Made by a program: the position numbers and the translations under genes
Origin: Aquabacterium sp.
GTDB lineage: Bacteria; Pseudomonadota; Gammaproteobacteria; Burkholderiales; Burkholderiaceae_C
Reading direction: 5' to 3'
DNA: 64,000 nt
Assembly: GCA_023150345.1 (NCBI GenBank)
Contig: JAKLLB010000002.1
Span: 84,585 to 148,584, forward strand
Notes under the pieces: generated by a model
What the model was told of the DNA's origin: nothing
The model's database searches: none
What the model saw: the letters and a program-made list of their open reading frames with translations, nothing else
Shown: positions 44,880 through 55,656 of the stretch, in pieces
Numbering within the stretch: position 1 is the stretch's first letter
How the letters are laid out: each line of letters opens with the position of its first letter

Positions 44880-49688
<4,809 letters not shown>

Positions 49689-49762
49689 GACTCGATCGGA
49701 CGAGGCGCGAGGTTACTGCAGTGCAGCAATCGACTCAAGCAGAATCTGCATTGATCTGACCC

Positions 49763-49791
49763 TATATATCGACGCGACTTCGGGCGATCAA
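49763..49791 (-). promoter_or_regulatory. Probable sigma-70 promoter of gltBD
   Basis: On the minus strand TTGATC (-35, 49786-49791) and TATATA (-10, 49763-49768) are 17 bp apart. The resulting start point at about 49756 leaves a leader of roughly 70 bases before the gltB start. The surrounding 49740-49827 is more AT-rich than the rest of the window. Confidence 0.6.
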
Positions 49792-49827
49792 ATTTAATGG
49801 GGCCATATCAAAACTGCGCTTCGGCGC

Positions 49828-50505
49828 TCATCCTGGTGACTTCCTGGGTCGGCCGCGGCGCCGCGGCGCGGCAGGCCGTCCGGTTTGCTCAGCCAGCCGA
49901 GCAACAAATTCGGGCGACCCCAACGCCCAATTCGATCGCGAGGCGCGGCTGATCTGGTTCATCCGGTGCTCGGGCAGCCCCGCCTCCAGCAACTGCGCGT
50001 ACCTCAGCTCGCGGTCGAACGGCGTGTTGCCCAAAGCCCAGTACTCCCGCGGCGGAGTCAGCCACGACACGCGTGCCTGGCCCAGGTGGTGCGGGGCGCT
50101 GCTGTGCGCCACATCGCCCGGCTCGCGGCTGCCGCAAAGGTCGACGAATACCAGCGTGTCCAACACATCGCCACCGGGCTCCAGAATCGCGGCGCCATAG
50201 CGCCCGTTCCACGGACTGCCGGCATGGCCAGCACGGCGGTTGCGCGTGGCCACCCATCGTCGCCCCAGGTCCTGCACCACGCGAGCCAGACCGGTGGCGA
50301 TGCTGGGTGTCACGAGCAGCAGGACGTGTGACGCGCAGAGCGCGTAGGCGTGCGTCGCCACATGATGCTGCGCGGCGGCCTGGCGCAGCGCGTCCAGCAG
50401 ATGTTGCCGATCGGCGTGGCCGTCGAACAGTTCAGTGTCCGGGCGTGCCTGCAACCACACGAGGTGTGCATGACCGGCAAGCGCGAGCCTGGGCAGTCTG
50501 GCCAT
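49828..50505 (-). CDS. Degenerate RAYT / IS200-like transposase protein, probably domesticated
   Basis: 225 residues with the overall layout of REP-associated tyrosine transposases: the opening MARLPRLALAGHAHLVW; THAYALCASHVLLLVTPS (51-68), where the family has an NHVHLL metal motif; LGRRWVATRNRRAGHAGSPWNGRYGAAI (80-107); and a basic tail RRRGRPRK. In this protein the second His of the HUH pair is Leu (62), and the tyrosines of the YxYIELNP-like motif are absent (118-123 read LVFVDL). It is therefore probably inactive as a transposase. No flanking REP repeats or terminal inverted repeats are seen. Located between dgt and gltB on the same strand. Confidence 0.75.
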   Translation of the reverse strand: MARLPRLALAGHAHLVWLQARPDTELFDGHADRQHLLDALRQAAAQHHVATHAYALCASHVLLLVTPSIATGLARVVQDLGRRWVATRNRRAGHAGSPWNGRYGAAILEPGGDVLDTLVFVDLCGSREPGDVAHSSAPHHLGQARVSWLTPPREYWALGNTPFDRELRYAQLLEAGLPEHRMNQISRASRSNWALGSPEFVARLAEQTGRPAAPRRRGRPRKSPG

Positions 50506-50552: not shown

Positions 50553-51776
50553 TCAGGTCACGGCGGGGGTCGGTGCGCCAAACGGCTCGCGGCCTGTGAG
50601 CCGCCGATACTCACGCGTTGCATAGCGATCGGTCATGCCGGCGATGTAGTCGGCAATGGCCCGATGCCGGTTGTCTCGTGCGGCGTAGTCGGCGGGCATC
50701 TGCTTCGGATCACCCAAGTAGGCGGCAAACAGTTGTCGCACCACTTCACGCGCAGCGTCGGTGGTCTCGACCACCTGGGGGTGCCGGTAGAGCTCGCGCA
50801 TCAGGACGCGCTTGAGCGCGGCAACCTCGCCTGCCAGTTGGTCGCTGAAGCCCACAGCGGCCGGCAGTTGCCGTGCGGCATCGGCACTCGTCGGCGCCAG
50901 CTCCTCCAATCTCGTCGCAGTGCTGTCGATCACGTCGTGGACCTGCTCGGCGAGCATGCGCCGGAGCACCTCGAACAGCAGGCGCCGCGCAGCCAGTCCG
51001 GGGTGATCATGGAGCACCGCAGCGTGATGGCGCCGGACCACCGACACGTCGATCAGTGAGTCCATCGACAGCAGGCCCGAACGCACGCCGTCGTCGATGT
51101 CATGGGCGTTGTAGGCCATCTCGTCGGCCACGTTGGCGAGCTGGGCTTCGAGGCTCGGACGCGTACCGTCCAGGAACCGCGCCGCCGGACCGTCAGGTTC
51201 GCGCAGCGTCAGGCCATGGGCGTCGGCTCGGCTGCAGTGCTTCAGAATGCCCTCGCGGCTTTCGAAGGACAGGTTCAGACCATCGAACCCCGGGTAGCGC
51301 TGCTCGAGCTCGTCCACCACCCGCAAGCTCTGCAAGTTGTGCTCGAACCCGCCATGAGCCCGCATGCAGGCGTTCAGGGCGTCCTGACCAGCGTGTCCGA
51401 AGGGTGTATGGCCGAGGTCGTGGGCCAGCGCGATCGCCTCGACCAAGTCCTCGTGCAGGCCCAGGCCGCGCGCGATCGATCGGGCCAGTTGGGCCACCTC
51501 CAGCGTGTGCGTCAGCCTTGTGCGGAAGAGGTCACCCTCGTGGTTGACGAACACCTGCGTCTTGTAGACCAGCCGTCGAAATGCAGTGCTGTGAACGATG
51601 CGGTCACGGTCGCGTTGAAACTCGTCGCGACCGCGTGGTCGCGGCTCGGGGTGGCGGCGGCCGCGGCTGCGTTCGGGGTTGCTTGCATAGCTGGCCAACG
51701 CCCTGGAAGCAGGCCAGTTCCCGGTAGTGAATACCGAGGTGCCCTGGTCGGCGTTGCCTCCGGCGCGACAAACCAT
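50553..51776 (-). CDS. dgt: dGTPase-like HD hydrolase
   Basis: 407 residues from ATG 51776 (MVCRAGGNADQG); an earlier ATG at 51842 would overlap aroB by 46 bases and lacks homology. HD domain: FRTRLTHTLEVAQLARSIARGLGLHEDLVEAIALAHDLGHTPFGHAGQDALN (about 86-137), with the conserved H...HD...D. The usual RDRIVHSTAFRRLVYKTQVF precedes it. The family hydrolyses dNTPs to nucleoside and triphosphate. It follows aroB by 20 bp, as in other betaproteobacteria. Confidence 0.93.
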   Translation of the reverse strand: MVCRAGGNADQGTSVFTTGNWPASRALASYASNPERSRGRRHPEPRPRGRDEFQRDRDRIVHSTAFRRLVYKTQVFVNHEGDLFRTRLTHTLEVAQLARSIARGLGLHEDLVEAIALAHDLGHTPFGHAGQDALNACMRAHGGFEHNLQSLRVVDELEQRYPGFDGLNLSFESREGILKHCSRADAHGLTLREPDGPAARFLDGTRPSLEAQLANVADEMAYNAHDIDDGVRSGLLSMDSLIDVSVVRRHHAAVLHDHPGLAARRLLFEVLRRMLAEQVHDVIDSTATRLEELAPTSADAARQLPAAVGFSDQLAGEVAALKRVLMRELYRHPQVVETTDAAREVVRQLFAAYLGDPKQMPADYAARDNRHRAIADYIAGMTDRYATREYRRLTGREPFGAPTPAVT

Positions 51777-51796
51777 GATCGCCAGGCGTCCCCCTG

Positions 51797-52939
51797 CTAG
51801 CGCGTCGCCGCGGGCGCCGCATCGCCGGCTGGCTCGGTGCATCGGCTGATGACGTCGAGCACGACATCGTCGGCGACCGGCCGCACGTCGGCATGCCCAC
51901 GGTCGTCGACGAGCACGAAGCGAATCGAGCCAGCCTCGGCCTTCTTGTCATGCTGCATCAGCTCCATCCACTGCGAGGCAGGCATGTGGGGTGCAACAGT
52001 CGGTAGTCCTGCGGCCGACACCATGGCCCGCACGCGCCCCACAAATGCCGCATTGACGAGATCGAGTCGACGGGAGAGCTCTGTCGCCATCACCATTCCG
52101 CACCCCACTGCCTCGCCATGCAACCACGTGCCATAGCCCATTCCAGCTTCAATGGCATGTCCGAAGGTGTGCCCGAAGTTCAGGATGGCGCGCAGACCTC
52201 CTTCGCGTTCATCCGCTGCCACCACCGCAGCCTTGATTTCGCATGATCGTCGTACCGCGTAGCCCAGGGCGTCCATGTCCAGTGAGCGCAGGCGGGCGAC
52301 GCGCGGTTCCAGCCAGTCCATGAAGTCCAGATCGGCGATCGGACCGTACTTGATGACCTCGGCGAGACCGGCAGAGAGTTCTCGCGCCGGCAGCGTTCGC
52401 AACAGGTCGAGGTCGCAGATCACACGTATCGGCTGGTAGAAGGCGCCGATCATGTTCTTGCCCAGGGGGTGATTGATCGCGGTCTTGCCGCCAACCGATG
52501 AGTCGACCTGCGCCAGCAAGGTGGTGGGCACCTGCACGAACGGGATGCCGCGCATGTAGCACGCCGCGGCGAACCCGGTCATGTCGCCGACGACACCACC
52601 ACCCAGCGCGTAAAGCACGGTCTTGCGATCACTGACGGTTGCCAGCAATCGGTCGAAGATGAGGTTGAGTGTCTGCCAGTCTTTGTGGGCCTCGCCGTCT
52701 GGCAGCTCCAGGCAGTCCACCCTGCCATGCAAGCCAGCCAGTTGGTCCATCAGCGCGCGGGCATGCAAGGGTCCCACTGCGTCGTTGGTGACAACCAGCG
52801 CGCGCGCGGATCGCGGCAGCCCCGCCCAGGTGCGGGCGTCGCCGAGCAGGCCCTTGCCTATCAGTATGTCGTAGCCGCGATCGCCGAGTTCTATGGTGAT
52901 TCGCGACAAGTGGTCGGTCGAGGCGGGCTGCATGGACAT
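51797..52939 (-). CDS. aroB: 3-Dehydroquinate synthase AroB
   Basis: 380 residues. NAD-binding [21 protein letters not shown] (about 111-131), [34 protein letters not shown] (about 137-170), zinc ligands in GLAEVIKYG and in [33 protein letters not shown] (about 255-287). It converts DAHP to 3-dehydroquinate, second step of the shikimate pathway. Two Met codons at 1 and 3 could both start. It follows aroK by 90 bp. Confidence 0.97.
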
Positions 52940-53029: not shown

Positions 53030-53632
53030 TCAGCTGTCCGATGAGCGAGGAGCGGGCTCGCGCCCCACGGTCGCAGGCACCAGCGCGGGGTCGATGAGCC
53101 CAGCCAGCTCGAGTTGCATGAGCACCATGTTGACCAGCGCGTGGACCGTCGGGCGTCCGATGTCGATCACATAGCGCGCGGTCATCCGGTACAGCGGATC
53201 GCGCTCGCGGAACAGCTCACGCAGCCGGCGCAGGGGGTCGTCGACCTGCAGCAAGGGCCGCTGGGTGTCGTGGCGCAAGCGCCTGAAGAGTTCCTCGGGA
53301 CTGGTGCGAAGGTAGATCACCCACGTGCGAGACGCCAGGGCGCGCCGGTTGTTGTCGCGCAGGACGGCGCCCCCGCCCGTGGCAAGGACGAGCCCGCGGC
53401 GTCGCGTCAACTGCTCGATCGCGTCTTCCTCGAGGTCGCGGAACACGGCCTCACCGCGCGATTCGAAAAAGGCGCGGATCGGCATGCCGATCGCGCGCTC
53501 GATCTCAGCGTCGCTGTCGGCGTATGCCCAGCCCAATTGGCGCGCGAGGTGCTTCCCTACGGTGGACTTGCCGCAGCCGGGCATGCCCACCAGGGAAATG
53601 CTGGCCGCCTTGCTCAGTTCGGGTTGGTGCAC
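53030..53632 (-). CDS. aroK: Shikimate kinase AroK
   Basis: About 200 residues. P-loop ISLVGMPGCGKSTVGKHLARQLG, shikimate-binding DSDAEIERAIGMPIRAFFESRGEAVFRDLE (Asp of DSD and Arg), LATGGGAVLRDNNR (GGG motif), and lid/adenine parts RHDTQRPLLQVDDPL and RDPLYRMTARYVIDI. Start chosen as the GTG at 53632 because the beta strand preceding the P-loop (SISLVG) is required and no ATG precedes it closely; the ATG at 53584 would cut the P-loop strand. The start lies inside the 3' end of the Ig-repeat gene (19-base overlap). C-terminal 30 residues extend past usual AroK. Confidence 0.93.
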   Translation of the reverse strand: MHQPELSKAASISLVGMPGCGKSTVGKHLARQLGWAYADSDAEIERAIGMPIRAFFESRGEAVFRDLEEDAIEQLTRRRGLVLATGGGAVLRDNNRRALASRTWVIYLRTSPEELFRRLRHDTQRPLLQVDDPLRRLRELFRERDPLYRMTARYVIDIGRPTVHALVNMVLMQLELAGLIDPALVPATVGREPAPRSSDS

Positions 53633-55656
53633 AGCACTGGAGCCGTGCGTGTGGTGTAACTGCCTTCGGGCGGCGAGACCTTGGGACTCTCCAGCACTCC
53701 GTATGGACTGGTGCGGAATGGTGGTGTCAAGTCCAGTCGGTTGACCGCGGTCGCGGGGACAGGGAGGACGCCGACGAAGTTGGCACGACCTTCGGTACCC
53801 GCCACGCCTGACGCTGAGACCACGAGGTTGAATACATCCCATGAACCGAGGTTCTGTGGGTACTCGATCCGCAGGACCACGCTGCCACTGGTGCTGGTCT
53901 TGGTGGACCCTTCGAACGACAGGGCCACATCGGCCTTCCGCGGCTCTAGCGCTGGGCGGCCGGTCGTCAAGTTGGCGCTGTCGTTGACGTCTTCCTTCCA
54001 GCCGTTGGTGTACTCCTCGGCCACGCCGTTTCGGTTCAGGTCCTCGTTGTCGCAGGTCGCGGTGACGATCTGCTCCCAGCGTTCGAGTCCGGGAACCCAC
54101 ACACCCTTCCAATACGACAGGAGGTCCAGAGACGCGCGAACCTCGACGTCGGCAACGGCATTGCCTGACGAGTCAACGACTTGAACCACATAACGGTTCA
54201 CGTACTTGACGCCCGTGGAATCATCGGCAATCAGGTTGTTGGTACCGATGCTCACCGAAAGCGCGTCGGCGGCAACCGTCAGTGTGGTGAACGTCGAGTT
54301 CGGGCAGGAACCCGCCGCAAAGTCACCGTAGTCCCAGCAGGCGCGTATCGTCACACCGTCGGTCGGGCTGAACCGTGAACCCGGGATGTAGGACGTCGTC
54401 GCCACGCCATTGGCATCGCTGTAGAGCATCGTGGTGCCGGCAGTGAAGGTGCCCCCGATCGACTGCGGGTCACCACCCAGGTCGAACCGCACCCGGATGT
54501 TCTTGACCGGCGCGTTCTGCTCGCTGAGGAAGAGCGCGCGGATGCTGGCCTGGTTGCTCGTCGAGCCACCCAGGTTGACTGGCACCACGCTGGGGTTGGC
54601 CGAGACCGATGCGGATTGGATCTTGATCGTGACCGGCGGGATCTCGCCCTGGCCGGCCAGCACCAGCACGTTGGACTGCGCCTGAACGCCAAGCGCTGCC
54701 GCCCGGATGATGATCTCGCCGGGATTGGCTGGCGCGGTATAGGTGTACTCGAAGTCGCCGTTGACGTCGGAGACACCCGTTGTCTGGGTCCCGTTCGCGC
54801 CGGTGATGACGATGGACTTGTTCGGCACAGGATTGCCGTTGACGTCGGCTAGCCTGTACTGGATCTTGCCGATCTGACCCGGGTTGAGCGCCGACGGCAG
54901 GAGCGTGGTCTTGATCTGGGACCCGATGATCTGGAACTGCTCCTTCTTGAACAGGGCGCCGCTGGTTGCGGTGACCGTGATCAACCGATTGGTCTTGTCG
55001 TCGCCGATGCCGACAGCCGCGGTGATCTTGCCGTCGGCATCCGTGACGGTGCCGTTCACCTTGGCCGTAGCGCCGTTGTCGACTGCGAAGATGACGGGTA
55101 TGTTGGGTACCGCATTTCGGTTCGCATCTACAGCAGTCAAGGTCGCAGTGATGGTCTGGGTACCCGAATTGGGCAGGCTGAGCGCAGACAGCGTCAGCAC
55201 CATGTCCGCAGCGGTGGGTACCGGGCTGCCTGCATCGACCACTGTGAGTTCGGCCGTCTTCTTGATCGACCCTGAGGACGCCGTCACGATAATCTTGCGC
55301 TGCGTCTTGTCAGACCCGATGCCGATGCTGCCAACGACCTTGCCGTCCGGCCCGGTCTTGCCGCCGATTTCACCGGCCACCACGACGGTCGCACCGGAGT
55401 CGACCGAAATCGTGACCTGTACGCCTTCAAGCGCATTGCGGTTGGCGTCGACGGCGGTCACGGTGGCTTCCACCGTATCGCTGCCGGAGTTCTTGATGGT
55501 GGTCGAGGACAGCACCAGTGTCAGATCGGAAGGCGTGGGTGCCGGCGTGGTCCCCATGATCGGGCTGCCAGCACTTCCACCACCACCCCCGCAGCCGGCG
55601 ACCACCGCGGTCAGCAGGCCGGCGATCCAGGTTCGCCAGGACATCATGCTCTTCAC
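53614..55656 (-). CDS. Ig-like repeat lipoprotein (Big_1/invasin type)
   Basis: 680 residues. Signal peptide with lipobox VVAGC (Cys22), then a Gly-rich linker. Domain 1 (about 44-140) and domain 2 (about 151-244) are clear tandem repeats: both contain TAVDANRNA, DSGAT/DNGAT, an xGxIGIGxDKT/VGIGDDKT loop and IxVTAxSG. A third bacterial Ig domain (248-335) and a fourth (341-465) follow, then a larger Cys-containing region (466-620) with CDNEDLNRNG, a Ca-loop-like Asn/Asp segment. Probably displayed at the cell surface. It sits between pilQ and aroK on the pil-aro strand; function unknown, possibly pilus-related. Confidence 0.8.
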   Translation of the reverse strand: MKSMMSWRTWIAGLLTAVVAGCGGGGGSAGSPIMGTTPAPTPSDLTLVLSSTTIKNSGSDTVEATVTAVDANRNALEGVQVTISVDSGATVVVAGEIGGKTGPDGKVVGSIGIGSDKTQRKIIVTASSGSIKKTAELTVVDAGSPVPTAADMVLTLSALSLPNSGTQTITATLTAVDANRNAVPNIPVIFAVDNGATAKVNGTVTDADGKITAAVGIGDDKTNRLITVTATSGALFKKEQFQIIGSQIKTTLLPSALNPGQIGKIQYRLADVNGNPVPNKSIVITGANGTQTTGVSDVNGDFEYTYTAPANPGEIIIRAAALGVQAQSNVLVLAGQGEIPPVTIKIQSASVSANPSVVPVNLGGSTSNQASIRALFLSEQNAPVKNIRVRFDLGGDPQSIGGTFTAGTTMLYSDANGVATTSYIPGSRFSPTDGVTIRACWDYGDFAAGSCPNSTFTTLTVAADALSVSIGTNNLIADDSTGVKYVNRYVVQVVDSSGNAVADVEVRASLDLLSYWKGVWVPGLERWEQIVTATCDNEDLNRNGVAEEYTNGWKEDVNDSANLTTGRPALEPRKADVALSFEGSTKTSTSGSVVLRIEYPQNLGSWDVFNLVVSASGVAGTEGRANFVGVLPVPATAVNRLDLTPPFRTSPYGVLESPKVSPPEGSYTTRTAPVLCTNPN

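Follow-up and report, generated by a model that had tools for sequence, protein, structure and literature searches.

A catalytically altered TIRYT-like protein beside gltB as a candidate regulator of nitrogen assimilation in Burkholderiales

What keeps a transposase-like gene with replaced catalytic residues in one place, directly ahead of the gene for the large subunit of glutamate synthase? The question is raised by a 225-codon open reading frame that sits between dgt and gltB in Aquabacterium sp., within a 64,000-nucleotide stretch of one contig that we refer to as the window (Table 1). An earlier note, drawn from the letters of that stretch alone, had read the product as a REP-associated tyrosine transposase (RAYT) that has lost its catalytic residues and might regulate the neighbouring operon. 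Here we bring together structure prediction, comparison with relatives across Burkholderiales and estimates of selection, and ask what the protein is, how firmly it is tied to gltB and what the DNA around it retains.

Table 1. Features of the dgt–gltB interval and its flanks, in window coordinates
Feature	Position	Strand	Remarks
dgt (HD-domain dNTP triphosphohydrolase)	50553..51842	(-)	47 bp upstream of the TIRYT-like gene, same strand
TIRYT/RAYT-like protein gene, 225 aa	49828..50505	(-)	second His of HUH and Tyr replaced
Degenerate box A, TTTTGATATGGCCCCATTAAAT	49792..49813	(-)	core 49805-49799; consensus core TGTCCCC; aligned with relatives
Degenerate box B (putative old right terminal repeat), ATATAGGGTCAGATC...	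49746..49768	(-)	core 49763-49753; aligned with relatives
Conserved sigma-70-like gltB promoter TTGAGT-N17-TAACCT, GCTGCACTGCA in spacer	49710..49738	(-)	-35 at 49738-49733, -10 at 49715-49710; comparison with relatives
gltB (glutamate synthase large subunit)	44880..49673	(-)	likely ATG 49673-49671; ORF caller: GTG 49688

The protein and its fold

The AlphaFold2 model of the window protein, computed from an alignment of 69 members, has a mean pLDDT of 93.7 and clearly predicts a TnpA_REP/IS200 fold of the HUH/Y1 superfamily, which bears out the transposase ancestry that had been proposed. The top Foldseek matches are the REP transposase 4er8 and then the IS200-type transposases ISDra2 and IS608 (leading PDB entries 4er8, 2xma, 2xm3 and 2xo6); all 23 matches at E<=0.001 belong to the superfamily, judged by title, and 4er8 itself aligns at E 1.5e-5 with a TM of 0.67 by target and an rmsd of 7.6 over 175 columns. 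The HUH-type fold reaches to about residue 126 and further helices to residue 208, so that the 225-aa protein has the RAYT-like core and long C-terminal extension of a TIRYT (TIR-associated tyrosine transposase). Family models recognise it weakly or not at all: Pfam Y1_Tnp matches at E 0.0019 (18.7 bits, cut-off 23), and NCBIfam REP_Tyr_transpos (NF047646) gives 15 bits against a cut-off of 80. By E value alone, 63 of the 69 aligned members match NF047646 at E<=0.001. The GRP of the basic GRPRK tail (G218, R219, P220), to which the earlier note had drawn attention, is invariant across all 69, as are, among others, P67, Q78, W99, R102 and N160 to F163; four of the 69 match AT_hook weakly (best E 0.026).

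At the alignment columns of the two His of the HUH motif, the Tyr and the Asn, the window protein carries H, L, F and C. It therefore lacks the combination of HUH and catalytic Tyr that marks a RAYT, and the claimed loss of residues survives alignment for the second His and the Tyr, though not for the first His, which is kept. The REP association fares worse. We reject it because a TIRYT-type end stands beside the gene, the gap between its stop and gltB has no second copy in the genome and the window protein scores below the cut-off of the family model; its relatives are TIRYTs, and we call the protein TIRYT-like instead. Rather than dispersed REPs, we find the downstream gap once in the window's own genome and the box A pattern described below once as well, at that gap, and the same genome holds no second copy of the protein at E<=1.

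Two smaller points concern the surroundings. gltB probably begins at the ATG rather than at the GTG chosen by the ORF caller, since relatives begin there, after GAAGGAG. Further away, a 680-aa ORF at 53614-55656 (-) resembles by eye a lipoprotein with repeated Ig-like domains; it stands upstream of aroK/aroB-like genes.

Linkage, catalytic state and selection among relatives

A match to the window protein at E<=1e-5 is present in 142 of 150 family genomes (129 of the 133 good ones), at least one of which, in G102 (E 2.6e-8, 29% identity), resembles a paralogue; within the genus all 21 genomes match, including all 20 besides the window's own. gltB lies downstream on the same strand in 108 of the 110 fetched family loci, the other two ending at contig edges, and is no more than 400 bp away in 106; in L032 and L046 the distances are 0.9 and 1.1 kb. 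The fixed location beside gltB that the earlier note supposed is thus confirmed. Among named genomes (Acidovorax, Variovorax, Polaromonas, Rhodoferax, Ramlibacter, Curvibacter and others), a scan of genome contigs with the single window protein as query gave no match, and the alignment of relatives did; its best 80 loci yielded 78 that could be parsed, all with gltB downstream (one at 662 bp) and 68 with the exact box pair described below, and since these best 80 lie mostly near an intact query, they say little about inactivated copies.

Across the order, 94 of 200 sampled genomes match at E<=1e-15. Thirty loci returned by this search comprise 21 that adjoin gltB (four being second fetches of family genomes) and nine that do not, and a further 20 chosen loci comprise ten upstream of gltB, with gaps of 0.2-1.5 kb, and ten where no gltB was seen, one of them at a contig edge. 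Copies linked to gltB occur in the families coded f1, f3, f4, f8, f10, f18, f32 and f33. A recognisable HxH motif is present in 17 of 19 unlinked loci, and some genomes of the sample are multi-copy, with six copies in G235 and seven in G236; some unlinked TIRYT-like copies from other families of the order are flanked by a single terminal repeat on either side. Distances on the tree of the protein correlate with those on the gltB tree (Mantel r 0.43, 0 of 500 permutations; 0.61 among intact copies), which fits vertical descent. One gltB-adjacent copy, L181, lies on a contig labelled Oscillatoria princeps and is 95% identical to L180 of Acidovorax delafieldii; the contig is probably a mis-binned Acidovorax contig.

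With HUH scored as present only when both His are, the 110 family loci divide into 63 with HUH and Tyr, 8 with HUH only, 5 with Tyr only and 34 with neither. Pooling the family, genus and order sets gives 142 gltB-linked loci, of which 72 carry all three residues (intact) and 70 lack at least one (inactivated), with widely varying replacements at the catalytic positions; because about half of the linked relatives keep HUH and Tyr, loss of these residues is recurrent in the family. A gltB tree of 139 loci demands no fewer than 28 changes of state, or 33 if regain is excluded, the 28 falling partly on weak branches and only 8 independent pairs standing on well-supported ones; a quick tree of the protein itself, with the motif columns removed, requires a minimum of 18. 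The HUH pattern is absent from all ten further linked loci of f4, f10 and f18. The f4 loci L261-L264 have an inactivated gene 0.2 to 1.5 kb from gltB and, near the gltB promoter, box-like sequences in dyad or inverted arrangement, some of them degenerate.

Selection on the protein is nevertheless purifying, as the regulator proposal had anticipated. Between the window and its nearest relative L121 (81% identity), dN is 0.121 and dS 0.52, a dN/dS of 0.23; for the same pair dgt gives 0.11 and gltB 0.016, and the 70 closest pairs listed, mostly intact, give 0.05-0.17. The window's ratio exceeds both that of dgt and that range, so selection here seems somewhat relaxed, and is far from absent. Three same-genus pairs that lack at least the Tyr have ratios of 0.16-0.17 (L006/L129, which have none of the three residues; L123/L127 and L125/L132, which retain the two His and have Phe in place of Tyr). 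Pairs from families whose fetched copies all lack HUH give 0.055 for L255/L256, at a dS of 2.06 that is near saturation, and 0.124 for L263/L264, so that close inactivated pairs span 0.055-0.23 overall; distant ones (0.22-0.57, dS mostly 1.4-2.5) are saturated and uninformative. No internal stop occurs within the listed family matches. On the open frames and dN/dS together we reject a pseudogene.

Boxes A and B and the gltB promoter

Between the stop codon and the gltB start, nearly all family loci carry both a box A, TGTCCCC-AATTAA, and a box B of the form AATTGG-AATCTGACCCC-AATT, or variants of these. The core pair TGTCCC and TCTGACCCC, 48-50 bp apart, stands in 103 of the 142 linked loci, made up of 56 of the 72 intact and 47 of the 70 inactivated ones, the exact geometry being missing in 39; a lenient test that accepts any of four 6-base cores within 420 bp before gltB finds at least one in 140 loci and none in two. 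Where the pair is exact, the distance from B to the start of TTGNNN-N16-18-TANNNT is precisely 18 or 19 bp in 50 of the 56 intact loci and in 45 of the 47 inactivated ones. The C before TGACCC, a position not used for selection of the loci, carries 2.0 bits in inactivated and intact loci alike, and the two T after the C run 1.8-1.9 versus 1.7 bits, inactivated loci being as conserved as intact ones; the middle of the A-B stretch falls to about 0.1 bit per base. In L007, L008, L029, L062, L090 and L097 the gene often extends at its 3' end into box A, which itself encodes protein ends such as DSVPN and DSDPI.

The pair is also rare. A strict A-B pattern occurs in 90 of the 150 family genomes at one place each, apart from a second, chance-like place in two of them, and its reversed control gives 2 hits; in the fetched loci it lies within the gap in 72 of 110 and never elsewhere in the locus. 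Across the order sample it turns up in 17 of 200 genomes, namely the linked families, several chance-like hits and G189, a genome with palindromic copies of the same core at two places.

The window's own genome does not contain the strict pattern, and the letters of the window's boxes have drifted (TGGCCCC in A, GGGTCAGATC in B). The spacing is as in relatives, 48 bp from A to B and 19 from B to the -35, and for box B the match is better in the opposite arm (usual form TTGGAATCTGACCCCAA); the form of that arm in the window's subclade, GGGTCAGA or GGGCCAGA, is common to L002, L121 and L122. The boxes become visible only by comparison: they are not among the repeats listed when a repeat finder is applied to the window by itself. 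It had been stated that no terminal repeats surround the gene; the degenerate repeats of Table 1, in the geometry of the relatives, contradict this, and these downstream repeats are the best evidence for the reading we propose below.

The promoter has to be moved as well. In the four aligned sequences of the window's subclade the common element is TTGAGY-N17-TAAYCT, which in the window lies 89 bases from the stop of the TIRYT-like gene; a strict promoter consensus scan finds none in the window. The earlier placement of the promoter at about 49791, 37 bases from the stop, misses the conserved element, and we reject it because the TATATA that resembles a -10 there falls on an arm of box B and lacks conservation. 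The spacer of the conserved promoter, at 49732-49716 in the window and in many linked loci, contains a TTGCTGCRCTGCA-like element that may be a further protein site or a feature of the promoter.

Box B looks like the end of a TIRYT transposon. The box core fits GGGGWSAS, the repeat consensus given for TIRYTs in PMC3733652; an inverted copy of box B was read upstream of intact linked genes in L008, L060, L065, L076, L103 and L105, and in nine unlinked TIRYTs the same core was read on both sides, mostly with other stem sequences. A strict upstream end within 90 bp is found in 33 of the 63 family loci with HUH and Tyr, 4 of the 8 with HUH only, 1 of the 5 with Tyr only and 2 of the 34 with neither. 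Loss of catalysis and loss of this end are associated when the tree is ignored (Fisher 5e-5), and the association is not significant after tree correction (3.4 versus 0.7 of 8 pairs). The window gene has no box core within 200 bp upstream: instead of inverted GGGGWSAS-type repeats on both sides, as in a TIRYT, only the degenerate downstream pair is kept.

In intact loci the arms of box B covary (paired 0.712 versus 0.658, sd 0.014, 0 of 1000 shuffles) and in inactivated loci no such signal is seen (0.577 versus 0.559, sd 0.015, 137 of 1000), these being shuffles that do not preserve the relatedness of the loci. Sliding the stem partner by one or two bases abolishes the signal in intact loci. 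Pairing of A with B gives the same picture in slid controls; a hairpin of A with B was rejected as the main structure and we make no separate claim for it, because box B alone gives the same signal. Where catalytic residues are gone, stem covariation is gone and the upstream end usually is too; the cores, the promoter spacing, the open frame and purifying selection remain.

Eight of the 150 family genomes have no match for the gene. Two of them, G043 (80% complete) and G140, retain gltB, and neither the gene nor the boxes precede it. G086 (99% complete) matches neither the gene nor gltB, as do the incomplete genomes G040 and G093; the contig ends at gltB or close to it in G131, G090 and G100, and G131 shows the boxes.

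A proposed domesticated transposase and the alternatives

The persistence of the gene beside gltB, the repeated loss of its catalytic residues and the presence of its own apparent end at a fixed distance from the promoter suggest that a transposase has been turned into a regulator of nitrogen assimilation. Specifically, we propose that a domesticated TIRYT binds its old right end, box B, and regulates gltBD, a reading to which sequence comparison leads us to give a probability of about 0.68. We infer this binding, the regulation and the sign of its effect from the fold, the location, the catalytic loss, the boxes with their rigid spacing, the rarity of the pair, purifying selection and two joint absences of gene and boxes. 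The earlier suggestion of a catalytically altered former transposase as candidate regulator has thereby gained support from location, residue loss, boxes and promoter spacing. We lean, with less assurance, towards a stronger form, in which the protein would be a catalysis-free, dedicated gltB transcription factor across several Burkholderiales families, through at least 28 changes of catalytic state, with the former right end of the transposon as its operator and the paired site once per genome.

In the scenario that we favour, an IS200-like tyrosine transposase of the TIRYT kind would have settled between dgt and gltB in an ancestor of several Burkholderiales families, its right terminal repeat would have come to stand just upstream of the gltB -35, and the host would have come to depend on protein bound at boxes A and B. 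If the -35 hexamer begins at -35, the core of B would lie at about -54 to -47 and A about 49 bp further up. The simplest action would be that of an activator contacting RNA polymerase or of a co-operatively bound modulator, and repression is possible; because B lies directly upstream of the -35, activation seems favoured over blocking. The HUH/Tyr chemistry would have become dispensable and been lost many times, with retention of the C-terminal domain, of the core that recognises DNA and of the GRP tail, which resembles an AT-hook, and this loss would remove single-strand cleavage and relax the stem while recognition of the core stays under selection.

Some of the same data could be accommodated without domestication. 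Half or so of the linked copies keep HUH and Tyr, about half of those also the upstream end, there are unlinked, multi-copy relatives in other families of the order, and the window's dN/dS is above that of intact pairs, as would suit a trapped selfish element that persists because its loss often harms the gltB promoter, its inactivated copies being slowly decaying passengers and the boxes relics or merely an AT-rich promoter element. We regard this as unlikely, given the lack of stops within the listed family matches, the low dN/dS of close inactivated pairs, the invariant residues common to intact and inactivated members and the conservation of box cores around a random stretch; moreover, none of the ten further linked copies of f4, f10 and f18 has HUH, yet box-like sequences stay in the gap. 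In the linked copies with HUH and Tyr, about half of the total, catalysis may still matter, and one could imagine that it is the conserved function, with intact protein nicking or rearranging single-stranded DNA at ends near gltB and inactivated lineages having lost that function. Stem covariation and the upstream end are indeed kept mainly where HUH and Tyr are, but box cores, promoter spacing and purifying selection persist without the catalytic residues, and nearly every genome with the paired site has it just once, without a sign of dissemination, which makes this account quite improbable.

Another host factor could also bind the boxes. They stand where an activator site would be, and regulation of gltBD by NtrC is reported for some betaproteobacteria in PMC5343134, so that the boxes might belong to an unrelated host regulator of gltBD with the transposase gene merely as a neighbour. 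Against this, unlinked TIRYTs have a similar sequence at both ends and intact copies have one at their upstream end, this sequence fits the TIRYT consensus GGGGWSAS as printed in PMC3733652, and gene and boxes are jointly absent in G043 and G140; we consider it very improbable.

The domestication reading departs from what is described for known systems. Di Nocera et al. 2013 (PMC3733652), who named TIRYTs and TIRtrons, describe HUH and Tyr as conserved in all members that they aligned; the genes studied here share with TIRYTs, as that text presents them, a Y1/RAYT-like core and terminal repeats with a GGGGWSAS core near or overlapping the gene ends, one such repeat standing on each side in several of our unlinked relatives. 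They differ in that one or more of the three residues is missing from 70 of the 142 linked copies and in that box A accompanies the right end at fixed spacing, both fixed relative to a host promoter. In the account of Quentin et al. 2018 (PMC6006769), subclass 2.1 of TnpA_Y1 probably corresponds to TIRYTs and is said to correspond to RAYT group 1 of Bertels 2017, a C-terminal HTH-like domain was found, and the tree kept only proteins with HUH and Y motifs. By that description subclass 2.1 resembles our proteins in its long C-terminal extension and lack of REPs, 2.1.1 being mostly from Proteobacteria; the word 'glutamate' does not occur in the paper's main text. In the TnpA_REP of E. coli, S. 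maltophilia and Marinomonas, exchange of Tyr for Phe abolished cleavage, according to PMC8266576. The E. coli protein (a RAYT, PDB 4er8) shares the fold; here no dispersed REP-like repeat was found, a C-terminal domain and a GRP tail are added and catalytic residues have been lost. A link of RAYTs or TIRYTs to gltB was not found by title or abstract in the literature covered, from which subscription journals were mostly absent.

Transcription factors derived from transposons exist, nuclease-dead TnpB repressors being one example. The protein proposed here would be similar in that a nuclease or transposase has been turned into a DNA-binding regulator, and would differ in being an HUH/Y1 protein with its own transposon end as putative operator and no RNA guide. 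If the reading is true, it would provide a clear example from bacteria of a transposase whose path to a transcription factor can be traced step by step among its extant relatives, in a series that runs from copies with both ends and all residues, through those with one motif lost, to inactivated ones with only the promoter-side end kept. It would also add a previously unrecognised candidate regulator of central nitrogen assimilation in a large group of bacteria, where the gene would be taken for a mobile element.
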